Source of the DNA: Lentisphaeria bacterium
GTDB lineage: Bacteria > Verrucomicrobiota > Lentisphaeria > Victivallales > UBA1829
DNA: 64,000 nt
Assembly: GCA_017503545.1 (NCBI GenBank)
Contig: JAFVSW010000335.1
Location: 1-64,000, forward strand
Reading direction: 5' to 3'
Part shown: one piece after another, positions 38,426-62,823 of the stretch
How positions within the stretch are numbered: the stretch's first letter is position 1
Layout of the letters: the number at the start of each line of letters is the position of its first letter
Notes under the pieces: model-generated
What the model was told of the DNA's origin: nothing
The model's input: the letters and a program-made list of their open reading frames with translations, nothing else
Databases searched by the model: none
Made by a program: the position numbers and the translations under genes

Positions 38426-39673
38426 TTACTTACGCTTTGTTTTTGTATTTTTCTTTACCGGCTTTTTCAAATTCTTTACAAATGCTTCCATGCGGTCCAT
38501 CGCAATATTGATTTTTTCCAACGATGTCGCATAAGAACAGCGGATATACCCTTCCGCACAATCGCCGAATGCCGGACCCGGCACAACTGCAACTTTCTGT
38601 TCTTCCAACAAACGCATTGCAAACTCATGGGAACTCAACCCCGTACTGCGGATATCCGGGAACACATAGAACGAACCTTCCGGCATCAAACATTTCAAGC
38701 CGATTTCATTCAGACGTTTCACAATCACACCGCGCCGGGTCTTGTATTCTTCACGCATACGCACCATATCATTTTTCGCAGAAAGCAATGCTTCTTCCGC
38801 CGCATCCTGGGACGTAACCGGGGCGCAAAGCATGGAATACTGATGGATCTTCATCATTGCATCAATAATATCCGTCGGACCGCACGCATACCCCACTCGC
38901 AAACCGGTCATGGCAAATGCTTTGGAAAATCCATGCAGAAATACTGTCCGTTCTTTCATCCCCGGCAAAGTAGCAATGGATGGCGTCATCGGTCCATAAG
39001 TCAATTCCGAATAAATATGGTCAGACAGCACAATCAAATCGTGCTTGATCGCAATTTCTGCAATCGCTTTTGTCTGTTCCATGGATAAAGTCGCACCGGT
39101 GGGATTACAGGGAAAATTCAGCAGAATCGCTTTTGTCCGGGGCGTAATCGCTTTTTCCAATTCCACCGGATCAAGAGCAAAACGGTCTTCCGCATAAGTT
39201 GGTACCGCAACCGGCACACCGTGCGCCATACGGATCTCCGCCGGATAAGAAACATAACACGGTTCGTGATATACCAATTCATCACCGGGCGACAATATTG
39301 CGCGGATTGCAAGGTCAAGTGCTTCACTCACACCGACAGTCACCAGACATTCGTTCTGCGGATTATAATCCACACCAAAATCCGATTCCAGATATTTGCA
39401 AATCGCTTTCCGTAAAGAAAGACTGCCCAGATTGGAGGTATAACAGGTATGACCCCGTTCCAATGAATACAACGCCGTTTCACGAATCGTCCACGGTGTC
39501 ACAAAATCCGGTTCTCCCACACCAAGGGATACCACATCTTTCATCTCGTTGACCAGATCAAAAAACGCACGGATCCCGCTTTTCGGTAAATCTTGAATAT
39601 GCGGAGCAACACGACAACGGCCTGCCGGTTTCGGAACCGAATTTTTCTTACATCGTGATGTTGAGACGTTCAT
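38426..39673 (-). CDS. Class I/II PLP aminotransferase
   Basis: A 415-residue fold type I aminotransferase. The PLP lysine lies in LHGFSKAFAMTGLRVGY. NFPCNPTG (Asn contacting the pyridine ring region), SDHIYSELTYG (Asp) and the C-terminal Arg in IRCSYATS follow the aspartate/aromatic aminotransferase I-gamma pattern. The substrate amino acid is not predictable. Its start overlaps the end of the Lrp-type regulator by 26 bp. A very strong Shine-Dalgarno (AGGAGG, 9 bp before ATG) is embedded in the regulator's coding end, so it can be translated independently. Lrp plus aminotransferase suggests amino-acid-responsive control. Confidence 0.88.
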   Translation of the reverse strand: MNVSTSRCKKNSVPKPAGRCRVAPHIQDLPKSGIRAFFDLVNEMKDVVSLGVGEPDFVTPWTIRETALYSLERGHTCYTSNLGSLSLRKAICKYLESDFGVDYNPQNECLVTVGVSEALDLAIRAILSPGDELVYHEPCYVSYPAEIRMAHGVPVAVPTYAEDRFALDPVELEKAITPRTKAILLNFPCNPTGATLSMEQTKAIAEIAIKHDLIVLSDHIYSELTYGPMTPSIATLPGMKERTVFLHGFSKAFAMTGLRVGYACGPTDIIDAMMKIHQYSMLCAPVTSQDAAEEALLSAKNDMVRMREEYKTRRGVIVKRLNEIGLKCLMPEGSFYVFPDIRSTGLSSHEFAMRLLEEQKVAVVPGPAFGDCAEGYIRCSYATSLEKINIAMDRMEAFVKNLKKPVKKNTKTKRK

Positions 39674-40133
39674 AGCCTTCTTCCTCCTGCATAAGTTTTC
39701 CGGATTCTTTGTATTTCTTCAGCAAAAAGTGTGTCGCTGTGGAAAGCACACCATCCTGCGTTGCAAGTTTGCGTGCAACAAAAGTTGCCACTTCCTGCAA
39801 ATTTTTTCCCTGCACTTCCACCAACAGATCAAATCCGCCGGACATCAGATAGAGACTGGAAACCTGCGGGAATTTACTCAACCGTTTGGCGATTTTATCA
39901 AATCCGCCTTCCCGTTCCGGGCGCGTTTTGACTTCAATCAATGCTTTCACTGCATATTCGGGGAGAATACTTTCATCAAACATGGCGCGATACCCGATAA
40001 TGGTTTTATCTTCTTCCATTTTCCGGATTGCTTCCGCTACGGCGGCGGCACTTTCACCAAGTTGATTGGCGATTTCTTCTACACTCATCCGTCCGTTTTC
40101 CGCCAACAGACGGAGCAATTTTTTCTTGTCCAT
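39648..40133 (-). CDS. Lrp/AsnC-family regulator
   Basis: A 161-residue regulator. Residues 1-55 form a helix-turn-helix, with NGRMSVEEIANQLGESAAAV as the DNA-reading part. Residues ~70-150 form the RAM ligand-binding/oligomerisation domain, including the signature around SSLYLMSGGFDLLVEV. Such proteins form octamers and respond to amino acids. It is the first gene of the operon running to lepB and overlaps the aminotransferase. The start ATG 40133 has AAGGA at 10 bp. Confidence 0.9.
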   Translation of the reverse strand: MDKKKLLRLLAENGRMSVEEIANQLGESAAAVAEAIRKMEEDKTIIGYRAMFDESILPEYAVKALIEVKTRPEREGGFDKIAKRLSKFPQVSSLYLMSGGFDLLVEVQGKNLQEVATFVARKLATQDGVLSTATHFLLKKYKESGKLMQEEEGYERLNITM

Positions 40134-40270: not shown

Positions 40271-40483
40271 GAGGCAATTTCAAAAGTTTTTAAAAATGCC
40301 TGAAAACTCTTGTTGGGATCTGAAAAACGGAGCGTTTGAGGCTTGACCCGCCGCAGACCCGGGGGGAAATAACCCACGCCTTGTCACGGCACAGCCGTAT
40401 GGCGACGCCGGATCAAACTGCCATTTTCATCTCATCAACAATCTTTTTTCCGTCAAATTTTGCCGGACTTTTGAAATTACCTC
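40271..40483 (-). mobile_element. MITE-like element, copy A
   Basis: A 213-bp element bounded by near-perfect 17-bp terminal inverted repeats (GAGGCAATTTCAAAAGT at 40271-40287; the other arm at 40467-40483). It is the reverse-complement relative of 62527-62741, with long near-identical stretches at both ends. An internal hairpin ACGGC-ACA-GCCGT is conserved (40386-40398). About 33 bp in the middle do not align. It encodes nothing and lies between the divergent Lrp and cysS genes. The remainder of the 479-bp gap (40134-40612) is AT-rich with no supported gene. The 62527-62741 copy may be an unrelated convergence only if the alignment fails. Confidence 0.8.
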
Positions 40484-40612: not shown

Positions 40613-42040
40613 ATGGCTGTGAAACTTTTCAATACTTTGGGCAGACGTCTCGAAGAATTTCATTCCATCGAACCTGGAAAAGCAAAACTTTATACTTGCG
40701 GTCCCACCGTTTACAATTTCGCTCATATCGGCAATTTCCGCTGTTATCTTTTTGAAGATATCCTCCGCCGCGCTCTCGAATATCATGGGTATGAAGTCAC
40801 GCAGGTCATGAACCTCACGGACGTGGATGACAAGACCATTCGCGATTCCCGTGCAAATAACATGAAACTTGCTGATTTTACCGCCCAATACAAAAAGGCG
40901 TTCTTTGAAGATTTGGATACTTTGCGCATCGAACGCGCTGCCGTTTATCCGGAAGCAACCATGCACATCCCCGAAATGATTGATATGATCCAGACGCTTA
41001 TGGATAAGGGGATCGCTTATCAGTCCGATGACAAATCCGTTTATTTCTCCATCGCAAAATTTCCTCAATACGGACAGCTTGCAAAAATCGATATGGAAAG
41101 TCAGCGGATCGGCGACCGCGTGAAAAATGACGAATATTCCAAAGATTCCGTCGGCGATTTCGCCCTCTGGAAAGCATGGGATGATAAAGACGGCGATGTA
41201 AAATGGGACAGCCCCTGGGGTCCCGGACGCCCCGGTTGGCATATCGAATGTTGCGCCATGAGCCGTAAATATCTGGGTGTAACGTTCGACCTCCATACCG
41301 GCGGGATCGACAACATGTTCCCCCATCATGAAGACGAAATCGCACAGAGCGAAGCCGCAAACGGATGCAAGTTCGTTAATTACTGGCTCCATTGCGAACA
41401 CCTCACCGTCAACCGTCAGAAAATGTCCAAATCCCTCGGCAATTTTTACACCATGCGTGACTTGCTTGCAAAAGGATATACCGGCGATGAGATCCGTTGG
41501 GCTTTGATCGGTACTCATTACCGTTCCAAACTCAATTTCGACCTCGGTTCTCTTGATCAGGCTCGGACTGCATTGAAAAAATTCCGCACTCTCTTTGCCC
41601 GTCTTGCCGCCCTGCCCGCAGGTAACAACGGCGTGGAAGAGGCAAAAGAACTCGCAGCAAAAGCAAAACAGGATTTCGCCGATGCGTTCGCCGATGACTT
41701 GAACATTGCACGCGGTCTCGCCGCCGTTTTCATGTTCAACCGGGAAATCAATTCCGGTCTCGCTGCCGGTAAATTCGGTGCCGATGCCGCAAAGATCCTG
41801 CTGGATCAATACCGTGATTTCGACCGTATTCTCGGCAGTCTCGATGTGGATGCAGCAATCAATGTCGCACCCGCTTCCGATGATACGCCCGCGGAAGTGT
41901 TGGAATTGATCGAAAAACGTACCGCTGCGAAAAAAGCGAAAAACTGGTCCGAAGCTGATGCCATCCGGGATCAGCTTAAAGCGCTCGGCTATGCAGTCGT
42001 CGATACACCCGCAGGACCGAAAGCGGAAAAAATCGGCTGA
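40613..42040 (+). CDS. cysS: Cysteinyl-tRNA synthetase
   Basis: A ~475-residue class I synthetase that charges tRNA-Cys. The HIGH-type motif is FAHIGNFR, preceded by YTCGPTVYN, whose Cys is the zinc ligand that also recognises the substrate Cys. Zinc-site [11 protein letters not shown] is present and the KMSKS loop is [21 protein letters not shown] is typical of CysS. ATG 40613 is chosen because GAGGAAAGG precedes it; a TTG-initiated extension from 40592 would overlap that site. The last bases overlap the next gene's start (TGATG). Confidence 0.96.
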
Positions 42041-62505: not shown

Positions 62506-62526
62506 TTTAAAAAAATAGTTTTTTTT

Positions 62527-62741
62527 GAGGTAAATTCAAAAGTCCGGCAAAATTTGACTGAAAAAGGATTGTTGAAGATATGGAAATGGTAGTTTGTTCC
62601 GGCGTCGCCATACGGCTATGCCGTGACAAGGCGTGGAAAATAACCATCCACCTTCGCCAAGGCTACGGCAGACTCAAACGCTCCGTTTTCAGATCTCAAC
62701 AAGAGTTTTCAGGCATTTTTGAAGACTTTTGAAATTGCCTC
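62527..62741 (+). mobile_element. MITE-like element, copy B
   Basis: A 215-bp element with imperfect 17-bp terminal inverted repeats: left arm GAGGTAAATTCAAAAGT at 62527-62543, right arm at 62725-62741. It is the inverted relative of 40271-40483. An internal hairpin ACGGC-TAT-GCCGT (62612-62624) is closed by an outer CGCC/GGCG pair (62606-62633). No protein is encoded. T-runs flank both ends (a possible TTTT target duplication). It lies in the 471-bp gap 62421-62891 between the divergent module 3 regulator and the cupin gene. Confidence 0.8.
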
Positions 62742-62823
62742 TTTTATAATTTACTGTCTTCAGACCTCCGGAAATGATTTGTCGTACACACGACAACATC
62801 CATGCATTTTTTGATAAAACACA

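Follow-up and report, generated by a model that had tools for sequence, protein, structure and literature searches.

What is the 213-bp noncoding block that separates two genes in the 64,000-nucleotide stretch of Lentisphaeria DNA analysed here (the window), and which enzyme would move it? The initial annotation had delimited the block, given it 17-bp inverted ends and an internal ACGGC-N3-GCCGT hairpin, seen no transposase gene in it and suggested a non-autonomous mobile element. The delimitation proved exact, the hairpin was located (Table 1), the ends read inward (GAGGCAATTTCAAAAGT and GAGGTAATTTCAAAAGT) match at 16 of 17 bases, and the 213 bp contain no transposase gene. The suggestion of mobility is borne out by many copies that share these ends, by their intergenic placement and 4-bp duplications, by one empty site and by an insertion sequence (IS) that matches in its ends. 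The block is very probably a miniature inverted-repeat transposable element (MITE), with the transposase of an IS1182-family (ISUnCu17-like) IS that has the same ends apparently supplying the enzyme in trans.

Architecture of the element

Table 1. Coordinates of the two copies in the window, the parts of copy A and its flanking genes
Feature	Position	Strand	Remarks
MITE copy A	40271..40483	+	213 bp, C-end to T-end; boundaries exact
Terminal inverted repeat, C-type, GAGGCAATTTCAAAAGT	40271..40287	+	0 mismatches to GAGGYAATTTCAAAAGT
Terminal inverted repeat, T-type, GAGGTAATTTCAAAAGT	40467..40483	-	End-pattern search of the window
Internal small hairpin, ACGGC-ACA-GCCGT	40386..40398	.	Belongs to the exchangeable central core
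Flanking gene, Lrp/AsnC-type regulator (PF01037)	39648..40133	-	137 bp between its start and copy A
Flanking gene, cysteinyl-tRNA synthetase (PF01406)	40613..42040	+	About 129 bp from copy A
MITE copy B	62527..62741	-	215 bp; BLAST identity to copy A 84%

The window contains five end-like sites, against 0.6 expected by chance. Several autonomous ISs have, on the transposase side, an end that agrees with the T-type end of copy A at all 17 bases. Inspection of the flanks of copy A gave no intact target-site duplication, as expected if the copy is old or has recombined. Within its family it is a diverged variant; its closest longer relatives in the genome to which the window belongs (G000) are 91% identical to it. 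When an empty site for copy A was sought in the same-genus genome G001, its two flanks matched different contigs at 72-74%. The inverted relative previously called near-identical is present as copy B, but an identity of 84% makes that term too strong; the value is this low because the arms are alike and the centre differs. TTTT borders copy B on both sides (62523-62526 and 62742-62745), which, as part of a T-run, is weak on its own as a duplication. Copy B has a GntR-type regulator gene on one side and a cupin protein gene on the other.

The copies in G000 fall into length classes near 165, 198, 215 and 220 bp, which have the two arms in common and differ in the centre; sister species carry further central cores. 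The small hairpin occurs in the 197-222-bp classes and is absent from the 165-bp class. Very short versions contain little beyond the two ends: L203:4001-4040 (G000:C134, 40 bp), L188:4001-4079 (G000:C30, 79 bp) and L106:641-675 (35 bp). All three keep matching 4-5-bp flanks, and the 40-bp version is a near-perfect palindrome. Either the ends alone suffice for mobility, or these versions were shortened after insertion through loss of the hairpin. The loci L009 (G000:C241) and L017 (G000:C250) share a flank in opposite orientation, the sequence to the right of one copy being the reverse complement of that to the left of the other. This points to recombination of two copies at the repeat, or else to an assembly join there.

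Copy number and spread among genomes

With up to one mismatch allowed, the 17-bp end GAGGYAATTTCAAAAGT occurs at 277 sites in G000, compared with 0 for a reversed control pattern. This corresponds to some 140 copies in the 4.06-Mb genome, a figure that is probably too low, since contigs break within the repeat. BLAST returned at least 39 near-full-length copies besides copy A. The many copies with the same ends that the initial annotation had expected are present, in relatives as well as in G000; their sequence in G000, however, is 82-92% identical to copy A among the matches listed (copy A itself excluded), so they are not near-identical.

The numbers differ widely between close relatives. 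The same-genus genome G001 has just 11 such ends, whereas three genomes of a related genus in the same family (g7; G007, G014 and G021) have 136-199 exact ends each. Copies are mostly 97-99% identical inside the G014/G021 pair and about 90% identical between these two and G007. Both the copy numbers and the identities indicate that amplification was lineage-specific, in bursts. Among named records, the family occurs in metagenome-assembled genomes of Lentisphaeria from the cecum of roe deer (RGIG3871) and the colon of sheep (RGIG5373) and in isolate SIG79. The spread of the MITE thus extends to several genomes of gut Lentisphaeria. Neither the MITE end nor a relative of the transposase was found in viral contigs. 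Many variant ends, GAGC[CT]AATTTCAAAAGT, are present in genomes of other genera (G006, G026 and G038) and are probably those of further MITE or IS subfamilies with a GAGCC end.

The draft assembly of G000 is split into 353 contigs and has 5.57% contamination. Among many such contigs, G000:C9, C25, C79 and C144 begin inside the MITE, at bases 125-141, about one k-mer length, which indicates that the repeat fragments these draft genomes. In about 40% of the 83 stretches matched in the roe deer, sheep and SIG79 records, the match is no more than about 200 bases from the end of a contig. The MITE thus helps to account for draft genomes broken into hundreds of contigs, many of which start or end inside a copy.

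Target-site duplications and placement

Target-site duplications, another point raised by the initial annotation, were sought in 110 distinct elements together with their flanking sequence; one is a 339-bp composite and the others measure 35-222 bp. A perfect 4-bp repeat is found at both boundaries of 58 of the 110; when flanks were shuffled and re-paired, a 4-bp match was obtained for a mean of 2.2 elements (maximum 8 in 1000 trials). Nineteen of the 110 match over five bases. The duplicated tetramers have an A+T content of 80%, as compared to 75% for the flanks and 54% for the window.

An empty site was read from BLAST coordinates and an alignment of the joined flanks. At G007:C74:46094, a 165-bp element is flanked by an AATA duplication. 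The orthologous intergenic place in G014 does not contain it and measures 59 bp, as against 220 bp in G007; G021 likewise lacks the element. The coding flanks around this site align at 72-82%. Another site is occupied at the same place in both G014 and G021, and some insertions are therefore common to these two sister species. The loci already collected yielded no empty sites; the matches there were self-matches or duplicates.

Placement was assessed for 81 elements by calling genes crudely on reconstructed empty sites. Seventy-one (about 88%) are intergenic, compared with 14% of random positions. The ten elements called inside genes were dismissed as interruptions, since each lies in an upstream or leader extension of an ORF, close to where an ORF ends or in an ORF that is itself doubtful; no clear gene disruption by the MITE was found among the 81.

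Candidate helper insertion sequences

A search of relatives for the same ends uncovered a 1398-bp IS in G057, encoding a 371-aa protein with the Pfam domains DDE_Tnp_1 and DUF772. Screening 137 genomes of the same order yielded further intact copies, and six intact ISs with these ends are now available (L072, L080, L093, L081, L096 and L082; 1364-1398 bp), with transposases of 371 aa except in L080 (360 aa). L082 comes from the same family as the window; the others are from elsewhere in the order. The IS ends read GAGGTAATTTCAAAAG.. and GAGCCAATTTCAAAA.., the same-end pair also being given as GAGGTAATTTCAAAAGT / GAGCCAATTTCAAAAGT, and 16-17 of the 17 terminal bases are identical between MITE and IS. 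Clear 4-bp duplications (ACTA, ATGT and ATCC) flank three of the six ISs and are ambiguous or absent in the other three.

The best NCBIfam match of the transposase is IS1182 in nine of nine aligned relatives. As the scores lie well under the curated cut-off (about 100 bits versus 270, in the two relatives with scores shown), we term the partner IS1182-like rather than a certified member. The nearest annotated relatives, at 37-43% identity, are IS1182-family transposases on plasmids of Comamonas, Aeromonas (ISUnCu17) and Acinetobacter; identity to ISUnCu17 is 39.7% over 98% (E = 2e-79). In the sequence record of ISUnCu17, we located its ends as GAGCCTCTTGCAAAAGGC and GAGCTTCTTGCAAAACTC, each adjoined by a copy of ATGA. 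A search of solved structures gave no protein related in sequence to the transposase.

A profile search detected no intact IS1182-like transposase gene in G000, G007, G014 or G021, an absence that is not firm as the drafts break at repeats. Relicts are present. In G021 (L077) and G007 (L075), the start of the transposase follows directly behind the same 17-bp end, and G000 retains a degenerate 5' leader and transposase start (L078, on C244 around 6707; alignment score 172, as compared to 47 for the best of 200 shuffles). The helper once lived in the window's lineage; as only this degenerate 5' relict is kept in G000, an intact helper must have been lost, have escaped assembly or reside elsewhere. 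The initial proposal that a transposase gene with the same terminal repeats might exist therefore holds for six ISs from other genomes of the order, including L082 from the same family, but in the window's own assembly only for a relict.

At L077:1226-1749 (G021:C59), a MITE stands in tandem with a composite, in which the 5' end of the IS (the end and about 30 transposase codons) is fused to the MITE body; this composite looks like a step linking IS and MITE. The one other DDE locus of the own genome, G000:C342:512-1083, is a decayed DDE_Tnp_1 transposase that we take to be IS5-like. It was rejected as partner of the MITE, the gene being broken by a stop and having no matching ends.

Proposed mode of movement

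The MITE has moved, and its ends match those of the ISs. In the predicted mechanism, the two 17-bp ends would be recognised by a DDE transposase provided in trans by an IS1182-family IS with the same ends. They would be joined by a noncoding body, self-complementary end to end and with a replaceable core, and the whole would insert into A+T-rich intergenic DNA, duplicating 4 bp of the target. We infer that the mover is the IS1182-like transposase or a close relative of it that has been lost or is unassembled. Several points count against this reading: the failure to find an intact transposase gene in the MITE-rich genomes, the low IS1182 scores and the lack of an intact duplication at copy A. 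In addition, the MITE and the known ISs share little beyond the 17-bp ends, and the C-end of the MITE has GAGGC where the known ISs have GAGCC. With a concrete element, a likely helper IS and close relatives of very different copy number, the bursts become datable and the loss of the helper testable.

Alternative explanations

The body invites a different reading, in which the block serves chiefly as a structured RNA or regulatory repeat between genes (an ERIC/REP-like sequence, a terminator or an mRNA-stability hairpin) under selection, with mobility past or incidental. Each element matches its own reverse complement at 66-79% identity, is predicted to fold into a single hairpin over its whole length (z = -3.1, copy A; z = -4.7, copy B) and is typically placed between genes; the alignment shows some two-sided changes in the arms, with at least one in 7 of 37 consensus pairs. 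All of this would suit such a role. However, a MITE is inverted-repeat by build and folding is to be expected of it, while loss of harmful insertions explains the intergenic bias equally well. The covariation term of the alignment is negligible (-0.21 kcal/mol), and we therefore make no claim of selection for structure. Rfam yielded no matching family, the sole match being sub-threshold and attributed to chance. The species- and subfamily-specific sets of copies, the 4-bp duplications, the empty site and the matching IS ends all point to mobility, and we regard selection for such a function as a very improbable main explanation. That the long hairpin with its conserved arms has a second role in the MITE, as a portable terminator or regulatory RNA between genes with the cores as functional cassettes rather than neutral filler, is unlikely.

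The MITE could instead be moved by a different, unrelated transposase with similar ends. The lack of an intact IS1182-like gene in the own assembly and the presence there of the second DDE locus would allow this, but that locus is stop-broken and without such ends, and agreement in 16-17 of 17 terminal bases together with the same duplication length is improbable by chance; we consider an unrelated mover highly doubtful. An artefact of assembly or binning, with repeats contributed by mixed strains, would be in keeping with a fragmented and partly contaminated draft in which many contig ends lie inside the element. It is scarcely conceivable, as the same family is found in the independently assembled genomes RGIG3871, RGIG5373 and SIG79, on long contigs and with different unique flanks.

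Comparison with known systems

ISUnCu17, from an Aeromonas caviae plasmid (NZ_AP026405.1), resembles the helper in its transposase (about 40% over 98%) and its 4-bp duplication (ATGA). Its ends start with GAG and carry ...TGCAAAA, those of the MITE and helper ...TTCAAAA, on the common plan GAG...CAAAA; it differs in being an autonomous IS of Pseudomonadota with ends that are just partly alike. Closer are the six autonomous IS1182-like elements of the order, whose 17-bp ends are almost the same as those of the MITE; they differ from it in size (1.36-1.40 kb), in coding for a transposase and in having GAGCC, not GAGGC, at the second end.

REP sequences are palindromes of 20-40 nt without target duplication, mobilised by the Y1 tyrosine transposase RAYT. 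REP/BIME sequences are likewise high-copy intergenic palindromes, but the window family is mostly 165-222 bp long and has 17-bp ends, a 4-bp duplication and a DDE rather than a Y1 partner; assignment to REP/RAYT was rejected on length, duplication and partner. The literature searched contained no paper on MITEs of gut Lentisphaeria. Bacterial MITEs such as Correia elements, RUP and Nezha are short, noncoding, high-copy elements with terminal inverted repeats, moved in trans by an IS transposase. The window MITE differs from these in its ends, partner IS family and host, and is a new family of this well-known kind.
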